The position numbers were made by a program, and so were the translations under genes. Below are positions 2,022-45,131 of a stretch of DNA of 64,000 bases, piece by piece. Below the pieces are notes generated by a model. The model ran no database searches. It was given only the letters and a program-made list of their open reading frames with translations, and had not been told where the DNA came from. Source of the stretch: Planotetraspora silvatica (GTDB taxonomy: Bacteria; Actinomycetota; Actinomycetes; Streptosporangiales; Streptosporangiaceae); NCBI RefSeq assembly GCF_016863315.1, contig NZ_BOOQ01000010.1, forward strand, positions 62,001-126,000, in the 5' to 3' direction. Each line of letters opens with the position of its first letter. The stretch's first letter is position 1.

Positions 2022-4730
2022 TCAGGAGCCCAACAGCACGCCGAGGAGGCGGAGCGCGCCCGCCTTGTCGAGAGGCTCGTTGCCGTTACCGCACTTGGGT
2101 GACTGGATGCAGGACGGACAGCCCCTCTCGCACTCGCAGGAGGAGATCGCCTCACGGGTGGCGGAGAGCCAGTCGGCCGCTTTGGCGTACCCACGCTCGG
2201 CGAACCCCGCACCACCCTCATGACCGTCGTACACGAATACGGTGAGCAATCCCGTGTCGGGGTGGAGTTCTGTCGAGACCCCGCCGATGTCCCAGCGGTC
2301 GCATGTGGCGAACAGCGGGAGCAGGCCGATCGAGGCATGCTCGGCCGCGTGGGCCGCGCCGCCCAGATCGACCGGTTTGCCGTCCGGGTCCGACGTCAGC
2401 GGGATGAGAGCGGCGGAGGGCAGAGTCCACCACACCGCGCGCGTGCACAATGTCCGGGCCGGTAGGTCGAGGGGTTCCTCACCGAGCATCTCGCCGGTCT
2501 GGTGGCGGCGCTTGAGATAGGAGACCACCTGATGGGTGACCTCCACGGAACCGAAATGCAGCTCCCCGGGACCGAAATCCTGCGACCGCAGCGACTCCAT
2601 CACACGGATGTCCGTCACGTCCCTGGCGAAGGTCGAATAGTCGGGCTCGGCTGTGGAGACCAGGGCGACTCCGGCGTCGAGTTCCAGCTCCTCGACCACG
2701 AACGTCTCGCCTTGATGCAGGTAGACCGCCCCGGTGTGGACGGTGGTGTGCGCCGACGACTCGTCGACCGTGCCCAGGAGCCGCCCGGTGCCGGACTCGA
2801 CCACCTGGATGGGGCTCCCGCCTGACCCTCTGATGTCCGCAAGGTCGGCGGCCCGGTTTCGGCTCGTCCAAAACCATCCCGTCGTACGCCGGCGCAGCAG
2901 TCCGCGGGCGACCAGATCGTCCAGCACGTCCTGGGCGGCCGGGCCGAAGATCTCGAGGTCGGCCTCGGTGATCGGGATCTCCGAGGCCGCTGCGCAGAGA
3001 TGGGGCGCCAGCACGTACGGATTGTCCGGATCGAGAACGATGGCTTCCACCGGGCGGCCGAACAGCGCCTCCGGATGGTGGACCAGATAGGTGTCCAGAG
3101 GATCGTCGCGCGCGATCAGCACGGCCAGCGCGTCCTGACCCGCGCGCCCGGCCCGGCCCGCCTGCTGCCAGAGGGAGGCGCGGGTGCCCGGCCATCCGGC
3201 GATGAGGACGGCGTCGAGGCCGGACACGTCCACGCCGAGTTCCAGCGCGTTGGTCGTCGCCAGGCCGACCAGGGCTCCCGAACGCAGGGCCTTCTCGAGT
3301 ACACGCCTGTCCTCGGCCAGGTAGCCCGCTCGATAGGCCGCCACCCGGTCCGCCAGCCGGCCCGAGCGCGGGCCGTCGAGAACGCCGGGGCCCTCCTCGG
3401 ATTCGGATGCCCGGCTCGTGAGCGTCTCCCCACGCGGCCCGCCGCCGCCCACGGTCGCCGGTCCTCCCAGGCCCGGTCCCGCCAGGCGCGGTCCTCCCAG
3501 GCCCGGTCCCGCCAGGCCCGGTCCCGCCAGGCCCGGTCCTGCTAGGCCCGGTCCTGCTAGGCGTGGTCCTCCCAGATCCGGTCCGTACGGCAGGGCCGGC
3601 TCCTCGAGTTCCTCGCCAGGCGCCAGTGCCGGCTCTTCGAACTCCCCGGCCCGTCGCACCGTCGGCTCTGCCGGGTCCTGGCCGTACGGCGGAGCCGATC
3701 CCACGAGATCGCCGAACGGCGGGGCGAGTCCTTCGCCCGTCTCGATCTCCTCCAGGTTGCGCCTCGCGGCGAGGGCGACCGTTTCCGCCGCGCGCCGAGA
3801 TCGGACGAACGCCAGTGTGCGGACGTCCTCGATCACGAGATCCGACAGCAGGTCGGCCGCTTCGGCGGTCGCCGTCCGCCGGACGGGGGCGCCGCCCTCG
3901 CCCCGCAGATCGGTCAGAGGAGGCTCCCACAGGGCGAAGGTGGTCGAACCCCGAGGGGAGGCGTCCGTCGTCACCTCGGCCATCTCAAGGCCTGTCAGGC
4001 GCATTCCCGCGAGAGCGGGCTCGCTCGCGGTCGCCGAGGCCAGCAGGAACACGGGCTGAGAGCCGTATTTGGCGGAGACCCGGCGCAGCCGGCGCAGGAT
4101 CTGGGCGACGTGGGAGCCGAAGACGCCCCGATAGCCGTGGCACTCGTCCACCACGACCAACCGCAGCCGCCGCCAGAAGGACGACCACGACGCGTGCCGG
4201 GGCAGGATCGACCGGTGCAACATATCCGGATTTGTCAGGACATAGTTGGCGTGCTGGCGGACCCACTGACGCTCTTCGGTGGGGGTGTCGCCGTCGAAGG
4301 TGGCCGCGCGCACCTGGGCCAGCCGCAAACCCCTGACGGTCCTGAGCTGGTCGGCGGCCAGTGCCTTGGTCGGGGTGAGGTAGAGCACGGTGCCGCCGGA
4401 GAAGATCTCCGTCACCGCCGGAACCAGGTAGGCCAGGGATTTTCCCGAGGCCGTTCCTGTGGCGATGATCACGTTTCGGCCACGGTGAACATGCTCGGCG
4501 GCCTCGAACTGGTGCTGCCAGAGGCCGGGGACGCCCTGGTTCACCAAGCGCGTAACGAGCAGTTCAGGAGCCCAATCCGGCCAACGGACTTGACCCGCCT
4601 GACGTGCTGGAACATGCTCCACATGGGTGACACGCCGCTGGCGTGCTGGAACAGCGAGCAGGCGGCCGAGAAGGGGGCCTGATCGTTCCGAGGGAGAAGT
4701 AAACGGAGTCACTGGTTTCCAGTTTGCCAT
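2022..4730 (-). CDS. DEAD/DEAH-box helicase with C-terminal DUF1998 (MrfA/YprA, Rv3649 type)
   Basis: An ATP-dependent nucleic-acid helicase of about 902 aa. It shows the Q-motif region (WQHQFEA), Walker A (ATGTASGKS, about residue 90), the DEAH-box variant DECH, and RecA2 motifs ending in QQAGRAGRAGQ. The C-terminal DUF1998 region has a four-cysteine cluster (CECERGCPSC) plus a further CGNGN, the probable metal site of the family. Bacillus MrfA of this family acts in mitomycin-type DNA repair; the same role here is inferred. An insertion of roughly 110 residues between RecA2 motifs holds eight tandem pentapeptides (DNA 3461-3580), which is unusual. ATG 4730 is preferred because the preceding 38 codons are non-conserved; no strong Shine-Dalgarno is visible, so the start is uncertain. 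Confidence 0.88.
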   Translation of the reverse strand: MANWKPVTPFTSPSERSGPLLGRLLAVPARQRRVTHVEHVPARQAGQVRWPDWAPELLVTRLVNQGVPGLWQHQFEAAEHVHRGRNVIIATGTASGKSLAYLVPAVTEIFSGGTVLYLTPTKALAADQLRTVRGLRLAQVRAATFDGDTPTEERQWVRQHANYVLTNPDMLHRSILPRHASWSSFWRRLRLVVVDECHGYRGVFGSHVAQILRRLRRVSAKYGSQPVFLLASATASEPALAGMRLTGLEMAEVTTDASPRGSTTFALWEPPLTDLRGEGGAPVRRTATAEAADLLSDLVIEDVRTLAFVRSRRAAETVALAARRNLEEIETGEGLAPPFGDLVGSAPPYGQDPAEPTVRRAGEFEEPALAPGEELEEPALPYGPDLGGPRLAGPGLAGPGLAGPGLAGPGLGGPRLAGPGLGGPATVGGGGPRGETLTSRASESEEGPGVLDGPRSGRLADRVAAYRAGYLAEDRRVLEKALRSGALVGLATTNALELGVDVSGLDAVLIAGWPGTRASLWQQAGRAGRAGQDALAVLIARDDPLDTYLVHHPEALFGRPVEAIVLDPDNPYVLAPHLCAAASEIPITEADLEIFGPAAQDVLDDLVARGLLRRRTTGWFWTSRNRAADLADIRGSGGSPIQVVESGTGRLLGTVDESSAHTTVHTGAVYLHQGETFVVEELELDAGVALVSTAEPDYSTFARDVTDIRVMESLRSQDFGPGELHFGSVEVTHQVVSYLKRRHQTGEMLGEEPLDLPARTLCTRAVWWTLPSAALIPLTSDPDGKPVDLGGAAHAAEHASIGLLPLFATCDRWDIGGVSTELHPDTGLLTVFVYDGHEGGAGFAERGYAKAADWLSATREAISSCECERGCPSCIQSPKCGNGNEPLDKAGALRLLGVLLGS
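3461..3580 (-). repeat. 8 x 15-bp tandem repeat inside the helicase gene
   Basis: Eight consecutive 15-bp units with consensus GTCCYSCCAGGCCCG on the + strand run without gaps. On the coding (minus) strand each unit encodes a Gly-Pro-Gly/Arg-Leu-Ala/Gly pentapeptide. The unit length is a multiple of three, so copy-number change keeps the reading frame. The repeat sits in an acidic/proline-rich linker between two conserved parts of the RecA2 lobe. Confidence 0.9.
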
Positions 4731-30877: not shown

Positions 30878-32074
30878 TCAGGGCAGGATCGTGCTGTCGG
30901 TCGCGTTGTTCGCGAGCCTGGTCACCGAGTGCGTGTCCGCGGCCTTGGCCAGAGCGGGAGCGGTGAGGTCGTTCGGTACGGCGCCGTTCGGGTGTGCCGG
31001 CGCCTTCGGGTGCACCACGCCGGTCCGTGTGTTGGCGCCTTCCGCGGACCGGGTCTTGGCGTCCGCGTTGTGGCTCCGGTGGCCCTGTGCACCACGTCCC
31101 TGATCAGCCTGCTTGGCCTTGGTTCCAGCGGCCTCCTGGGTGCCGGAGTTCGGGTGAGCCGGACGGCCTGGGCCGGCGGGCGTCACCGCGTTCTGTCCGC
31201 CGTGCTGCTTGTCCCCCGGCTGGACGACGGCCGACGGCACCTTGTGGTGGGGACGGCCGTGGGGATGAGCCGGAAGGAACTCGGCGCCCGAACGGGATGA
31301 CGACTTGTCGTTCTTTCCACGTCCCGCCGCGGCCGAGTTCCGGCCCTTGGGGTTGTGCTCGTTCCCGGCCTTCGCCGCCGCCGGAGTGCACGCCTGGCGC
31401 ATCACGCCCGGCCGTGCCGGAGCGATGGCCATGAGGGGAACCATGGGAACCGTCGTCGACGGCTGGGCCGCCTCAGCCGCGGAGGAGGCCCCCGTCGCGG
31501 CCTGCTTGGCCACGGACTGTGCCGCGTCCACCGCCGGAGCCGGGTTCGGCATCTCGGCGGGCACTGCCTTGGACACGGCCTGAGGCGCCATCTGCGCTCC
31601 CGCCGGAGCCGCCTTCTTGGCGTTCGGCAGCGCGGGCAGCACCGTCGACGCGTCGGGCGCGGGGGCCGGAAGCGTCCTCGGGCGGCCTGCGGCGGACTTG
31701 CCCGGGGCGCCCTGAGCACCCTGCGCCGCGCCGCCCTTGGCCGCGCCGCCCTTGGGTGCACCGCCCTTGGGTGTGTCGCCCTTGGGTATGCCGCCCTGCG
31801 CCGTGCCGCCCGTGGTCGTGGTGGCCGGCCGTCCGGGCATGGAGGGCAACCCGTGCGCGGCTGCGGCCCCGGCGGTGTCGGCGATGCTGAGCACTCCGCT
31901 CGGCGGAGTGAGAGTGTTCAGGTTCGCCGGCGAGTTCTGGTTATGCGGCTTGCAGGCGTCGGTCATGGTCGTGCCGTCCGCCATCGCGTGACCGGTCGCG
32001 AGCCAGCTCACCCCAGCGGTGACCGCCGCCAGAACGACGCACCGCCCCCGCATACTTCGTGATGTCCTGGACAT
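30878..32074 (-). CDS. Secreted low-complexity Ala/Pro/Gly/Lys-rich protein
   Basis: A 398-aa protein with a signal peptide (VVLAAVTAGVSWLATGHAMA) and almost no predicted globular domain. It contains tandem PKGG/AKGG motifs (about residues 95-115), Ala/Pro stretches, and a His/Asn/Gly-rich C-terminal half with NPKGRN and HPHGRPHHK. There are two Cys (in ACKPH and QACTP). No family is recognised; a disordered, basic, envelope- or spore-surface-associated protein is inferred. GGGGGA precedes ATG 32074. Codon use follows the local GC-rich pattern, so the frame is convincing despite low complexity. Confidence 0.65.
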   Translation of the reverse strand: MSRTSRSMRGRCVVLAAVTAGVSWLATGHAMADGTTMTDACKPHNQNSPANLNTLTPPSGVLSIADTAGAAAAHGLPSMPGRPATTTTGGTAQGGIPKGDTPKGGAPKGGAAKGGAAQGAQGAPGKSAAGRPRTLPAPAPDASTVLPALPNAKKAAPAGAQMAPQAVSKAVPAEMPNPAPAVDAAQSVAKQAATGASSAAEAAQPSTTVPMVPLMAIAPARPGVMRQACTPAAAKAGNEHNPKGRNSAAAGRGKNDKSSSRSGAEFLPAHPHGRPHHKVPSAVVQPGDKQHGGQNAVTPAGPGRPAHPNSGTQEAAGTKAKQADQGRGAQGHRSHNADAKTRSAEGANTRTGVVHPKAPAHPNGAVPNDLTAPALAKAADTHSVTRLANNATDSTILP

Positions 32075-39653: not shown

Positions 39654-40382
39654 ATGATGAATTTATCGGAGCCCGCGATCGCCGTACGGGACCTGAGGGT
39701 CGAGCGCGGCGGCGTCGAGGTCCTGCACGGGCTCACCTTCGAGGTGCCGCGCGGCCAGGTGACAGGGCTGCTCGGCCCCAGCGGTTGCGGGAAGACCACG
39801 TTGATGCGCGCGATCGTGGGCGTGCAGATCGTGACCGGGGGAGAGGTCGCCGTGCTCGGCAGGCCCGCCGGTGACCCCTCCCTCAGGCGCATGATCGGCT
39901 ACTCGACCCAGAACCCGGCCGTCTACCGGGACCTGTCGGTGGTGGAGAACCTCCGCTACTTCGCGGCCGTGCTGAACGCGCCGAAATCGGACGTGGACCG
40001 GGTTATCGAGGAGGTCGGCCTGTCCAGCGTCGCCGGCCAGCTCGGCGGAACACTCTCCGGCGGCCAGCTCAACCGGGCCAGCCTCGCCGTGGCGCTGCTC
40101 GGCTGCCCCGAACTCGTCGTGCTCGACGAGCCGACCGTCGGGCTCGACCCCGTCCTGCGCCAGGAGTTGTGGCGGCTGTTCCAGAGCCTGGCGGACCGCG
40201 GCGTGACACTCATCGTCTCCAGCCACGTGATGGACGAGGCCGCCCGGTGCCAGCGGCTCATCGTGATGCGCGAGGGGGAGATCCTCGCCGACGACACCCC
40301 ACACGAGCTGCGCGAGCACACGCGCACGACGGATCTGGAAGAGGCGTTCCTGCGGCTCATCGAGGAGAGGACGGCGGCATGA
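39654..40382 (+). CDS. ABC-2 exporter ATP-binding protein
   Basis: A 242-aa ATPase with Walker A GPSGCGKTTL, signature LSGGQLNRASLAVALLG, Walker B LVVLDEPTVGLDP and the switch His in IVSSHVMDE. It is of the NatA/DrrA type. Its stop overlaps the permease ATG (ATGA). It starts a two-gene exporter operon whose substrate (drug, lipid or peptide) is not evident. Confidence 0.93.
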   Translation: MMNLSEPAIAVRDLRVERGGVEVLHGLTFEVPRGQVTGLLGPSGCGKTTLMRAIVGVQIVTGGEVAVLGRPAGDPSLRRMIGYSTQNPAVYRDLSVVENLRYFAAVLNAPKSDVDRVIEEVGLSSVAGQLGGTLSGGQLNRASLAVALLGCPELVVLDEPTVGLDPVLRQELWRLFQSLADRGVTLIVSSHVMDEAARCQRLIVMREGEILADDTPHELREHTRTTDLEEAFLRLIEERTAA

Positions 40383-41113
40383 ACCTCGCGATCACCCTTG
40401 CCACGGCGCGGCGGATCCTGACCCAGCTGCGCCACGATCACCGCACGGTCGCGCTGATGGCGCTGGTGCCCACACTCGTGATCATCCTGCTCTACTACGT
40501 GATCGACGATCAGCGCTCCTTCGGCGCGTGGGCGCCGATCCTGCTGTGCGTCTTCCCCTTCCTCGTGATGTTCCTGGTCACCTCCATCGCCACCCTGAGG
40601 GAACGGACGTCCGGCACGCTGGAGCGGCTGATGGCCACGCCGCTGGGCAAGCTCGACCTGCTCCTCGGGTACGGCATCGCGTTCGGCCTGATGGCCTGCG
40701 CCCAGGTGGCCATCGCGCTGGCCGTCTCGCTGACGTGGCTCGGGTTCGACCTGGCCGGGCCGTTGTGGTCGCTGGTCGTGATCGCGCTGCTCAACGCCCT
40801 GCTGGGCACGGCGCTCGGGCTGTTCTGCAGCGCCTTCGCCCGCAGTGAGTTCCAGGCCGTGCAGTTCATGCCGGTGGTCATGATCCCCCAGCTCCTGCTC
40901 GGCGGGATCCTGGTCCCGCGCGACCAAATGGCCACCGTCCTGGAGTGGATCTCCAACGTCCTGCCGATGTCGTACGCCATCGAGGGGATGAAGGACGTCG
41001 TCATCGGCGGTGAGCTGGGTGGCGAGTTCTGGCGTGACGTGGCGGTCGTGGCGGGCTCGGCCCTGCTCGCCCTCGTCCTCGGCGCCGCCACTCTCCGCCG
41101 CCGAACCCCCTGA
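40379..41113 (+). CDS. ABC-2 type permease
   Basis: A 244-aa permease with six hydrophobic segments. The family motif TLRERTSGTLERLMATPL comes after the second helix, and an EFQAVQFMPVVMIPQLLLGGI segment follows. It is coupled to the ATPase by an ATGA overlap. Together they form a DrrAB-like exporter. The longer frame starting at 40169 overlaps the ATPase and is not used. Confidence 0.93.
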   Translation: MNLAITLATARRILTQLRHDHRTVALMALVPTLVIILLYYVIDDQRSFGAWAPILLCVFPFLVMFLVTSIATLRERTSGTLERLMATPLGKLDLLLGYGIAFGLMACAQVAIALAVSLTWLGFDLAGPLWSLVVIALLNALLGTALGLFCSAFARSEFQAVQFMPVVMIPQLLLGGILVPRDQMATVLEWISNVLPMSYAIEGMKDVVIGGELGGEFWRDVAVVAGSALLALVLGAATLRRRTP

Positions 41114-41127
41114 CCCCCCAATTGGGC

Positions 41128-41247
41128 CGTGATCATGCGCAGGTTCGTGGCCGTACCGCATGACCTGCGCGAACGCCCGGCGTGATCATGCACAGATTCG
41201 CGCCCATGCCGTACGACAAGGGCATTCTCGGGTCGTGATCATGCACG
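41128..41247 (-). repeat. Left 53-bp phased repeat array (three cores)
   Basis: Read on the minus strand, the core TGYGCA-TGATCACG occurs at 41128-41141, 41181-41194 and, with one change, at 41234-41247, exactly 53 bp apart. Two full 53-bp units (41136-41188, 41189-41241) align without gaps to the four units of the right array. It lies between the converging ends of the ABC permease gene and proC. 53 bp is not a multiple of three and no ORF is supported. Confidence 0.85.
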
Positions 41248-41290
41248 AGGGGTCATGAGGCCCAGTCGGTCGCGAGAGCCGTACGAGATT

Positions 41291-42085
41291 TCAGCCGGAG
41301 GCGAGCTGGCGACTGCGGTCGCGAGCCGCCTCGATGGCGTCGAGGAACGCGGCGCGCACCTTGTGACGCTCAAGCTCGGCGATGGCGGCGATCGTCGTGC
41401 CTCCGGGAGAGGTCACCGCCTCGCGGAGGATCACCGGGTGCTCGCCGGAGTCGCGGAGCATGATCGCGGCGCCGACGATCGACTGGGTGACCATGTCGAG
41501 CGCGGCCGCGCGGGGCATGCCCAGCAGGATGCCGGCGTCGACCATGGCCTCCACCAGGTAGAAGAAGTACGCGGGGCCGCTGCCGGAAAGCGCGGTCGCG
41601 GCGTCCTGCTGCGACTCGGGAATCCGCAGCACCTTGCCGACCGGGGAGAGCAGGTCCTCGGCTCGCTTGAGGTGGGCCTCCGACGCGTGTTCACCGGCGG
41701 AGATGACGCTCATGGCCTCGTCGACCAGAACGGGCGTGTTGGACATGACCCTGACGACGGGCACCTCGCCGCCGAGCCTCGCCTCGACGAAGCCGGTCGT
41801 GACGCCCGCCGCCACCGAGATGATCAGGCTGCCTGCAGCGAGGTGGGGAGCGATCTCTGCGAGCAGGCTCGCCATGTCCTGCGGTTTGACCGCGAGGATG
41901 ATGGTTTCGGCGCTCTTGGCCGCCTCGGCGTTGTCGGTCACCCGCACGCCGTACCGCTCGCGCAGGGCCTCGGCGCGTTCCGGGCGCCGGGCGGTCGCCG
42001 TGATCTCGTGCGGCCGGAGGCCGGCCCGCACCAGTCCGGACAGGAGGGCCTCGCCCATCTTGCCTGTTCCGAGAATCGCGATCAT
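41291..42085 (-). CDS. proC: Pyrroline-5-carboxylate reductase ProC
   Basis: A 264-aa enzyme for the last step of proline synthesis (P5C + NAD(P)H to proline). The Rossmann motif is IAILGTGKMGEALLSG, with NTPVLV in the middle. The C-terminal signature includes ALSGSGPAYFFYLVEAMVDAG and LREAVTSPGGTT. The last two genes of the minus-strand block, MFS then proC, are 45 bp apart, but proC has its own GAGGA ribosome-binding site. Phased repeat arrays flank this block. Confidence 0.95.
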   Translation of the reverse strand: MIAILGTGKMGEALLSGLVRAGLRPHEITATARRPERAEALRERYGVRVTDNAEAAKSAETIILAVKPQDMASLLAEIAPHLAAGSLIISVAAGVTTGFVEARLGGEVPVVRVMSNTPVLVDEAMSVISAGEHASEAHLKRAEDLLSPVGKVLRIPESQQDAATALSGSGPAYFFYLVEAMVDAGILLGMPRAAALDMVTQSIVGAAIMLRDSGEHPVILREAVTSPGGTTIAAIAELERHKVRAAFLDAIEAARDRSRQLASG

Positions 42086-42130: not shown

Positions 42131-43390
42131 TCATGCCCTGCGAAGGTTCCGGATCGCGGGCACGCTCAGCAGGACGACGACGCCGGCGAGTCCCACGCCG
42201 AAACCGAACAGGAGCACGTGATCGGCTCCGACCCGTTCGGAGACGGGGCCGGAGAGCGCCTGGCCGATCGGCATGCTGAGGACCGAGCCCCCGACCTCGT
42301 AGGCCGTCACCCGGTTGAGGACGTCCGGGGCGACCTTGGTCTGGATGCTGGTGGCCCACATCACCGACCAGAAGGCCCATGCCGCCCCGCTGAGGGCGAA
42401 CCCGGCCGCCATCACACCGGCGGGCATCCGGGTGGCGATGACCAGTGGCTCCAGGAAGAACGCGATCATCACGACCGCTCCGGTGGCAAGCGGCCGGGCC
42501 GGTCTGACGTACATCGCGACCATGCCGCCGAGGATGGTCCCCGCGCCGACGGCCGACATCATCCAGCCGTAGGCCGACCTGCCCAGATCTTCGGTGACCA
42601 GCGCCGCTCCGAGGGGCACGAGCGGGCCGAAGACCACCACGCCGTAGACGGCCCAGACGAGGATGACCGCCCACATCCATGTCCGGGAGCGGAACTCGTC
42701 CCAGCCCTCACGCAGGTTCCTGAGCATCGACGAGCCCGCGGCGATCGACGCCACCGGGCGGACGTTCAGCGACAGGATGCAGACGGCGCTCACCGCGAAG
42801 GTGCCGGCGTTGACGCCGTAGACGACGCCGGCGCCGCCGAAGACCACCAGAATTCCGGAAAGCGCGGGTCCGAACAGTTGGGCGATGGCGTCGGCGACCC
42901 GCAGGGTGGCGTTCGCCCGCTGCACATCTCGGGAGATCTGCGGCACCATGCTGGCCACGCCCGGCTGGAACATCGCGGCGGCGGCGCCGCTCAGCGCCGA
43001 GAGCACGATGAGCAGGACGAGTGAGGGCCTGCCGGTCAGGAAGCTGATCGCGATGACGGACTGCGTGACGACTCGCACCAGGTCGGCGCCGATCATCATG
43101 CGCCGGGCGGTGAACCGGTCGGCGAAGACTCCGCCGAACAGGATGAGGGTGCCCATGGGCGCCATCCACGCGGCGAGGACGAATCCGACACCGGTGGGCC
43201 CGTATCCGGCTCCCAGCACGCCCAGCGAGACGGCCACGGGCAACATCGCGTCGCCGAGGATGGAGATGGCCCGGCCGACGAAGTAGAGCGCGAAGTCCCT
43301 CGTCCACAAGGGGGGCCGCTGTTCTTTCTCGACAGCCTGTACGGCCTGCGCCACTTCGCCCCCTGATGTCCGATCCGCCGCGGACATCAT
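42131..43390 (-). CDS. MFS transporter (MFS_3/enterobactin-exporter-like)
   Basis: A 419-aa protein with about 12 hydrophobic segments. It has the MFS_3 features FALYFVGRAISILGDAMLPVA at the first helix and a motif A-like stretch GGVFADRFTARRMMIGADL in loop 2-3. It is probably a drug or metabolite efflux pump driven by the proton gradient; substrate unknown. The upstream region (43391-43742) is largely occupied by the right 53-bp repeat array. Confidence 0.9.
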   Translation of the reverse strand: MMSAADRTSGGEVAQAVQAVEKEQRPPLWTRDFALYFVGRAISILGDAMLPVAVSLGVLGAGYGPTGVGFVLAAWMAPMGTLILFGGVFADRFTARRMMIGADLVRVVTQSVIAISFLTGRPSLVLLIVLSALSGAAAAMFQPGVASMVPQISRDVQRANATLRVADAIAQLFGPALSGILVVFGGAGVVYGVNAGTFAVSAVCILSLNVRPVASIAAGSSMLRNLREGWDEFRSRTWMWAVILVWAVYGVVVFGPLVPLGAALVTEDLGRSAYGWMMSAVGAGTILGGMVAMYVRPARPLATGAVVMIAFFLEPLVIATRMPAGVMAAGFALSGAAWAFWSVMWATSIQTKVAPDVLNRVTAYEVGGSVLSMPIGQALSGPVSERVGADHVLLFGFGVGLAGVVVLLSVPAIRNLRRA

Positions 43391-43420: not shown

Positions 43421-43693
43421 TTTTCCCTGAGTGGTGATCACGCGGCGGCCGTTCGCGTGGCGAACCGATTGCGTGATCACGCGAGGTGTTCACGCTGTTC
43501 GTAGTGCGTGAAGCAGAATTTGCGCACGATCACGTCAAGCGTTCGCGCTGGTCGCGCTGGGTGAAACAGAATTTGCGCATGATCACGACCGGTGTTTTCC
43601 CTGGCGGGACGGCAAGATTCCGAAAGTGTGCATGATCACGGGCGGGGTTTGCGCTGGTCGGACGGCCTGATCACGAAGGTGTGCATGATCACG
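43421..43693 (+). repeat. Right 53-bp phased repeat array (four full cores plus partial copies)
   Basis: The core TGYGCA-YGATCACG occurs at 43521, 43574, 43627 and 43680, exactly 53 bp apart. A core lacking two bases at 43470-43481 keeps the TGATCACG half in phase. Four gap-free 53-bp units occupy 43474-43685. A second conserved block, GTTYGCGCTGGTC, lies 14 bp into the units. Extra TGATCAC halves at 43435 and 43668 are out of phase. The array fills the divergent region between the MFS gene and the MacAB-like operon. Confidence 0.88.
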
Positions 43694-43742: not shown

Positions 43743-45131
43743 GTGACGCCACGTCGCGGAATTCCTCCGCTTCTCGCCGTTCTCCTGATCTCCGGGTGCT
43801 CGTCCCCGGACACCCCCGCGGTTCAGGTCGCACAGGTCACCCGCGCGCCGGTCAGCGAGGTCGTCGAGGCCCCCGCGACGGTCGGCGCGCGCGCGACGGC
43901 GGCGCTGACCACCCCCGCGTCCGGCACGATCTCCAAGCTCTACGTGCAGGACGGCGACACCGTCAAGAAGGGTCAGATCCTCGCGAGGATCAGCTCGCCG
44001 CAGGCGAAGGACCAGCTCGACCAGGCACGAAAGGCCGACAAGCAGGCCTCCCGGCCCGTCTCGGCGCGAGGCGTGTCCACGTCGGTACGGCTCCCGCCGC
44101 TGAAGGTGCCGGGAAGCCTCGACGCCCGGGTCGCGCGCGACTTCGCCAGAGCCAGGAAGGCGGCGGCGAAGGTCGAGGACCGGGCGATCAGAGCGCAACT
44201 CCTGGCCGCCATCGACGCGGCGCAGACCCAGCACAAGGCCCAGCGGCAGGCGCTCGACCAGGTGGTCAGCGGCCTCAACCGGTCGGTCGGCCAGGCGGTC
44301 GCGCAGGTGAGCGGCCAGCTCGGCGCGGGGCTCAGCGGCCTCACGGCGTCCATGTCGTCCCTTCAGGCGGCCTCGCGGTCGCAGACCAAGGCGGCGGTGA
44401 AGGCGGCCAGGCGAACCGTCGACGGGCTGGTCATCAAGGCGCCCTTCGGCGGAGTGATCACGCTGGGCGGCGCCTCCTCGGGAGGCGGCGCGGGGGACCT
44501 GAGCGGCCTCCTCGGGCAACTTCCCGCCGGTCTGGCCGGCCAGGCGGGCGCGGCCGCCCCCGCCTCGAGCGGACGCTCAGGCGGGGTCGTCGCGACCGGC
44601 GTCCCGGTGGCGGCGGGGGACACGATCGTGACGGTCACCGACGTCTCGGCGCTCGTCCTGTCCGCCGACGTGGATGAGACCGACGTCCTGCTGGTCCAGA
44701 AGGGGACGCCCGCGGAGGCCGAATTCGACGCGGTGACCGGCGGCACCTACACCGCCACGGTGACGGGTGTCGGGGTCACTCCGAAGGAGGGGACCACAGG
44801 CGGGGTCAGCTACCCCGTGCGCCTGCGACTCGGCGACGGCGTCTACGACGACCAGAGCCCCGCTCCGGCGCCCAAGCCCGGGATGAGCGCGGTGGTGCGT
44901 CTGACCGTACGGCAGGCTCCCGACGCGATAGCCGTACCGGCCTCGGCGATCGTGACGAGCGGCAGGGAGTCGATCGTCTGGGCGGTGCGCGGCGGCAAGG
45001 CCGAGCGCCGGGTCGTCAAGCTGGGGGCCCAGGGCGACGCCACCGTTCAGGTCGTCAGCGGGGTGGCGCCCGGCGAACAGGTGGTCGTCAAAGGCGCGGA
45101 CACCGTCAGGCAGGCGCAGACCCTCCCATGA
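43743..45131 (+). CDS. MacA/HlyD-like periplasmic adaptor lipoprotein
   Basis: A 462-aa efflux adaptor with a lipobox (LLAVLLISGC). It has a split biotinyl-lipoyl domain (ATAALTTPASGTISKLYVQDGDTVKKGQILARI and the matching half VIKAPFGGVITLGG), between which lies a helical hairpin (residues 95-215). A beta-barrel and a membrane-proximal domain follow. TACGAT ends 7 nt before GTG 43743, a leaderless pattern. It is coupled to the downstream ATPase by ATGA. In an actinomycete without an outer-membrane TolC it probably couples the ABC unit to the cell envelope. Confidence 0.9.
   Translation: MTPRRGIPPLLAVLLISGCSSPDTPAVQVAQVTRAPVSEVVEAPATVGARATAALTTPASGTISKLYVQDGDTVKKGQILARISSPQAKDQLDQARKADKQASRPVSARGVSTSVRLPPLKVPGSLDARVARDFARARKAAAKVEDRAIRAQLLAAIDAAQTQHKAQRQALDQVVSGLNRSVGQAVAQVSGQLGAGLSGLTASMSSLQAASRSQTKAAVKAARRTVDGLVIKAPFGGVITLGGASSGGGAGDLSGLLGQLPAGLAGQAGAAAPASSGRSGGVVATGVPVAAGDTIVTVTDVSALVLSADVDETDVLLVQKGTPAEAEFDAVTGGTYTATVTGVGVTPKEGTTGGVSYPVRLRLGDGVYDDQSPAPAPKPGMSAVVRLTVRQAPDAIAVPASAIVTSGRESIVWAVRGGKAERRVVKLGAQGDATVQVVSGVAPGEQVVVKGADTVRQAQTLP

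Follow-up and report, generated by a model that had tools for sequence, protein, structure and literature searches.

MITEs are short non-autonomous elements bounded by inverted repeats. Mycobacterial interspersed repetitive units (MIRU), also from an actinobacterium, are tandemly repeated, intergenic and about 50 bp long, and their core can supply a stop codon. DNA uptake sequences have a core of about 10 bp in about 1000 copies, with inverted pairs and lineage variants, and are common inside genes as well. REPINs, REP doublets and BIMEs are dispersed, extragenic, hairpin-forming inverted doublets of high copy number (PMC3116915, PMC3733652). According to the portions of these two papers used here, REPs have a lineage-specific sequence with a constant outer tag and tend to lie close to 3' ends and in the gaps of convergent genes. 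The tags are given as GTAG or CGTC (PMC3733652, in part), and Actinobacteria are not among the phyla for which these portions name tagged REPs (PMC3116915, PMC3733652).

Here we analysed a window of 64,000 nucleotides, which is the whole stretch of DNA under study. It contains a short tandem array, the left array, between an ABC permease gene and proC. It represents a large family of dispersed intergenic repeats, found in some actinomycetes, of which it is a single copy. The repeat family has apparently not been described before. No description of it was found among the listed matches of the open-access literature searched, and Rfam gave no match at the gathering threshold.

Comparison with known repeat systems

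The arrays were similar to REPINs and BIMEs in their high copy number (998 cores in the genome of the window, G000), in their constant tag and in their extragenic place, as 270/273 sampled array cores were outside genes predicted by a codon-usage finder built for this analysis. Inverted doublets were also present: neighbouring arrays less than 700 bp apart were inward-facing in 46/46 cases, a congeneric genome (G003) had a minimal hairpin, and inverted pairs were found in 7/296 genomes of the class, of which G366 added a further family. However, the tag was GTGATCATGCA and not GTAG or CGTC, the unit consensus began with CGTGATCATGCAC, and the copies were expanded into direct 53-bp arrays. PF01797 (Y1_Tnp), which represents Y1 transposases including RAYTs, had no match in G000-G003, G062, G054, G186, G325 and G384. 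It matched in G004, G086 and 7/12 array-poor genomes. REP/RAYT was rejected as the driver because PF01797 was absent from 9/11 array-bearing genomes, including G000. Two of the features that define REPs are missing from the repeat family: the tag and the RAYT partner.

MITEs shared terminal inverted repeats and dispersed copies of the kind seen in G062, but no clear target-site duplication was seen at proC and no parent transposon among the genes between facing arrays, and the arrays had fixed loci and conserved cores. Compared by description only, MIRU were alike in the tandem intergenic form, the length of about 50 bp and the core as a stop codon, and the arrays differed by inward pairs on both strands, about 1000 cores and a fixed core with variable linkers. 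DNA uptake sequences were alike in core size, copy number, inverted pairs and lineage variants. In contrast to them, the array cores were rare in genes (3/273) and phased.

The two arrays of the window

Exact cores GTGATCATGC were located on the + strand at 41129..41138, 41182..41191 and 41235..41244, with spacings of 53 and 53 bp. The third was the last core, where the unit consensus ended. The preliminary description had reported three cores with an exact 53-bp period at 41128, 41181 and 41234, and this was confirmed, although those positions are the C preceding each core. A C-rich tract (41114..41128, +) came before the first core, as was found genome-wide at -16 to -5 before first cores. 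The array was preceded by an ABC-2 type permease gene (40379..41113, +; Pfam ABC2_membrane) and faced on its other side by the convergent proC (41291..42085, -; Pfam P5CR_dimer). The setting between the 3' ends of these two genes had been described correctly. There was no inverted partner of the left array within its own gap. TGATCA occurred 28 times in the window, compared to 8.65 in shuffles. Other tandem repeats, with a 15-bp period and unrelated to the TGATCA arrays, were located at 3458-3584 and 31730-31820.

The right array (43471..43692, -) was in a divergent-gene gap and had five cores at 53 bp, three exact with 5' ends at 43692, 43639 and 43586, and two variant at 43533 (GTGATCGTGC) and 43480 (GTGATCACGC). 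An MFS transporter gene (42131..43390, -; Pfam MFS_1 and gene call), whose start was uncertain (43354 or 43390), lay between the arrays together with proC. Beyond the right array was a HlyD/CusB-type membrane-fusion gene (43743..45131, +; Pfam HlyD_D23). Near the inner end of the array, two GTGATCACGC sites were seen on the + strand (43434-43443 and 43473-43482), and the second of them made the palindrome CGTGATCACG together with the - core at 43480. An additional TGATCA was located at 43668-43673, 18 bp inside the first right unit.

The left units had been said to align gap-free with the right array read on the minus strand. This was borne out by the alignment of 41128-41244 with 43577-43693, which ran over 117 nt without a gap and was 72% complementary. 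Pairwise alignment of the units then answered whether only TGATCA was common. The linkers of the two left and four right units, with the core excluded, shared 183/328 letters. Shuffled linkers shared 87.1 ± 12.2 letters, and 0/20000 shuffles reached 183, indicating that the likeness extends far beyond the palindrome.

Unit structure and gene context

The genome (8.66 Mb, 117 contigs) had 498 exact cores on the + strand and 500 on the - strand, and the reversed pattern gave 0 matches in the same genome. There were 661 adjacent core pairs. An array consisted of n cores and n-1 linkers, with the C-rich tract alone before the first core and, after the last one, conservation ending at about position 10. 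The consensus of 203 internal units was CGTGATCATGCAC, then TTCG, then YGACCWGS. The next core was at 53 bp in 198 cases and at 52 bp in 24, a share inflated by the choice of L189-L208 mostly for 52-bp pairs already seen there; other distances were single except for 18 bp (6 cases) and 35 bp (5 cases). Extra cores at these thirds of 53 thus recurred genome-wide. Three to five cores were found in 80/86 arrays, a set that includes orthologous loci and is not independent.

Arrays were present in 16/122 convergent, 7/122 divergent and 23/470 tandem gaps. The mapping of orientation proposed in the preliminary description therefore gave a convergent excess over tandem gaps (p 0.003), but the difference from divergent gaps was not significant (p 0.08). 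A rule tied to convergent genes did not hold, because divergent gaps carried arrays too, including the right array of the window. The gene behind the first core was co-directional in 52/86 arrays, and in 8/52 of these the core supplied the TGA stop.

The 46 close inward-facing pairs (G000 23/23, G001 5/5, G062 18/18) include orthologous loci and are not independent. At distances of 700-4000 bp, six neighbours were inward and two outward in G000, and two were inward, four outward and four parallel in G062. Facing arrays also bracketed one or two genes, such as proC and the MFS gene here. An ABC ATPase-like gene, recognised by translation, was bracketed in the same way, and likewise in genus g59. 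The idea that facing arrays invert the gene cassette they enclose was rejected, as the flanks were collinear at the ABC ATPase shared with G062. A transposase between facing arrays was also rejected, as the translations looked ordinary by eye; the family search covered proC and the MFS gene only.

Origin and turnover of the arrays

Five congeneric genomes were compared at the permease/proC gap. In G000 and G002, whose proC genes are 98% identical, the left array was directly behind the permease stop, with one further unit on the 5' side in G002. The same gap was about 25, 25 and 19 bp in G001, G003 and G004, with no array. These filled and empty sites showed that the left array was inserted after the ABC permease stop, specifically in the lineage of G000 and G002. 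The insertion was about 153 bp (41114..41266, +), beginning behind the stop and ending near 41266, an approximate right edge. No clear target-site duplication was seen at the proC insertion. In a set of 80 named relatives, drawn from Streptosporangiaceae and allied groups such as Actinomadura, none had an array at proC and two had one isolated core there. Cores at the place of the right array were also found in G001, G002 and G003, and none were seen in G004, where the stretch compared may be too short. The right array is older than the left array.

In G000 and G001, whose DNA is about 90% identical, 17/20 arrays had the same place and orientation, and array loci in shared stretches were found again in another genus in 3/4 cases. 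For 13/14 G000 loci, at least one near-match core was found in G003, with much shorter arrays there; two of these 13 rest on one core. The core strings, for which two mismatches were allowed and which include some opposite-strand chance matches, were '++-' in G003 and '+++++++-----' in G000 at one shared locus, and '+-' and '+-+++-----' at another. The '+-' form is a hairpin-like inverted pair, the smallest seen. The comparisons showed that the length of an array at a shared locus varies in whole 53-bp units. At G000:C2:346755-346924 (in L165), the array was inverted relative to G001 and G003 with the flanks direct.

The cores and linkers changed at different rates. In 22 orthologous unit pairs, 1/198 letters differed at core positions 0-8, 10/286 in the 13-nt core and 69/572 in the linkers. 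The spacing was 53 in both genomes in 18/22 pairs, and no exact next core was found in 4. The pairs came from three overlapping, non-independent comparisons (7, 9 and 6). As an ortholog could not be recognised for most units, these 22 overlapping pairs are the basis of the core rate.

Close relationships among the units of G000 were mostly local. At 81% identity or more, 16/17 unit pairs were within one locus. Pairs at 74-81% were mostly between different loci and exceeded column shuffles: 46 between-locus pairs were at 74% or more, compared to about 21 pairs overall in the shuffles (maximum 39). This excess indicated that the loci retain some old relation to one another. Same-rank units of facing arms were at 74% or more in 11/57 pairs, and units of different loci in 0.24% of 5791 pairs (p 2.4e-4). 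The pattern fits local tandem duplication together with exchange between arms. In L191 (9409-10207), the facing arrays around one small gene had a unit in common whose linkers were 98% identical, which looks like a recent exchange.

In G062, seven copies of one whole element were present in both orientations with unrelated flanks. Their edges either coincided with the outer cores or lay no more than about 35 bp away, and terminal inverted repeats were present. Spread to new sites therefore does occur.

Distribution and lineage variants

The tandem pattern was found in 22/297 genomes of the window's family, including all five of the genus, with a single match in 7/22. Elsewhere in the family, adjacent pairs numbered 529 in G062, 193 in G086, 117 in G054 (period 41-43 bp) and 116 in G186. 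In the class, 13/394 genomes matched, and the five that were single matches outside the family are probably chance. In G325, G384, G323, G443 and G531 the core was followed by other extensions, and its spacing was irregular for the most part. Within the genus, G004 had a different dialect: the RCR continuation was present in just 90 of 1158 GTGATCATGC, and four of six cores examined read GTGATCATGCAGAA. Other families and G004 carried the core with different extensions, and spacing was irregular outside the window's family. The core is therefore constant across lineages, each lineage has its own extension, and only some lineages show strict phasing. In stretches from other families (L317, L319, L323 and L324), the core was shared with other extensions and C-rich flanks, and L324 had a 22-bp head-to-tail array of the core. 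A phage origin was rejected, as five viral stretches with the tandem pattern had unrelated flanks. A plasmid origin was also rejected, as no plasmid match to the left array was found.

A candidate binding protein

The part of PMC5839063 considered here lists 44 boxes from DNA fragments gel-shifted by S. coelicolor ArgR, the fragments having been selected using an earlier ArgR model. One of the 44 in Table 1 is CTCTCCGTGATCATGCACCC, near SCO5864, which contains CGTGATCATGCAC and is given with no differential transcription (PMC5839063, same part). The lead to ArgR came from a string search with GTGATCATGCA and is therefore no blind test. In an ARG-box model built from 36 boxes with CTCTCCGTGATCATGCACCC left out, this box scored 11.5 bits, and the training boxes averaged 10.6. 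The 84 array cores of the G000 stretch scored 8.4 ± 3.2 bits, in one register only, and 8.4 bits was reached by 0.05% of random genomic 20-mers. The fit of the array cores was below that of the training boxes and concerned mainly one half of the box. For the best ArgR site per unit, 17.7% of shuffles reached the real mean, in a comparison that is uninformative because its windows cut the register. The ArgR protein motif had 0 matches in the 3.75 Mb examined, which is only part of any genome.

The likeness to S. coelicolor ArgR thus consists of the box with CGTGATCATGCAC and the fit of the array cores to the box model. In contrast, ARG boxes in the source as used here are single or contiguous 20-nt pairs near promoters, and the cores here form 53-bp arrays in hundreds of intergenic gaps. 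ArgR or a relative may be named as the first candidate binder of the core, an assignment that we regard as tentative and less likely than not.

Discussion

We consider it somewhat probable that the arrays are mobile repeats of a REPIN/BIME-like kind, in which the core serves as a putative protein site under selection. The basic form would be an inverted pair with repeats of about 20 bp, having the tag GTGATCATGCA at the outer edge and a lineage-specific extension. In this genus, copies would have grown to arrays with a 53-bp period, most of which have 3-5 cores. The core may be bound by a predicted DNA-binding protein acting on duplex DNA. The spacing, which is near five helical turns, would suit several protein copies on one DNA face, and selection on the protein contact would keep the core unchanged. 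That the core is frozen while the linkers drift points to such selection, and its constancy amid turnover suggests recognition by a candidate DNA-binding protein. Seeding of new copies is probably not by a RAYT-type transposase.

The arrays might instead be purely selfish MITE/REPIN-like DNA, with the core as a terminal repeat for a transposase, the arrays as by-products of duplication and no host function. The insertion at proC, the seven whole-element copies in unrelated G062 flanks, the hairpin-like inverted pairs with lineage-specific extensions and the patchy spread (22/297 family genomes, seven of them single-match, and 13/394 class genomes) agree with this, and the between-locus likeness of units gives it more room. 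However, the core was nearly fixed in old orthologous units with drifted linkers, and array positions were kept between species and partly between genera. In addition, close unit relatives in G000 were mostly within one locus, and no transposase was found with the arrays. We therefore regard pure selfishness as unlikely, and a role in insulation or chromosome organisation as somewhat likelier than it. Chromosome organisation is a possible role of the arrays.

The preliminary description had also suggested a termination-related element. As a 3'-end element, the arrays or inverted pairs would stop or process transcripts from both sides, and the convergent bias, the short distance from stop codons to first cores, the TGA within the core and the long hairpins formed by single inverted pairs in other genomes are in its favour. 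Against it, arrays were present in divergent gaps, and the left array lacked an inverted partner. No terminator-like site (a G+C-rich stem followed by a T run) was found in the left or right array, and RNA folds of the left array were only slightly better than those of shuffled sequences (z -1.29 and -0.33). A hairpin within each unit, pairing GCACAGGT with ACCTGCGC, was rejected, as the pairing was at expectation in 203 units, a comparison to which the conserved columns leave little power. Termination was thus unsupported in the window, and we consider it quite improbable as the explanation of the arrays. The single inverted pairs of other genomes may possibly have such a role.

The argument made earlier against a simple promoter operator was upheld, because the array belongs to a genome-wide intergenic repeat and entered one lineage by insertion just after a stop codon. 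An operator array through which an ordinary transcription factor controls adjacent genes is very improbable, since the palindromic TGATCA, the phased sites, the arrays upstream of some genes and the likeness to ArgR boxes are set against hundreds of arrays, 16/46 array-bearing gaps that are convergent, and three congeneric genomes that keep the permease and proC genes without the left array.

The mobile repeat with a selected core can be extended to a fuller proposal, which is speculative and which we hold doubtful as a whole. One candidate binder, ArgR or another protein, would read the fixed tag GTGATCATGCA, with the lineage dialects standing next to it. Inverted pairs would be seeded in intergenic gaps, the helically phased inward arrays grown from them would bound genes throughout the chromosome, and this patchily distributed system would be a RAYT-independent organising or insulating counterpart of REPINs.

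A REPIN-like system of this kind would lack the RAYT transposase that is held responsible for REP spread. If the binder were ArgR, an amino-acid repressor would gain a second, genome-wide role. The arrays would also be a clear case of intergenic DNA that holds place and orientation during linker turnover. Should the core prove to be a protein site used throughout the genome, these genomes would offer a ready probe for its binder, as they have arrays by the hundred, sites that are naturally filled or empty, and almost no divergence in the core.
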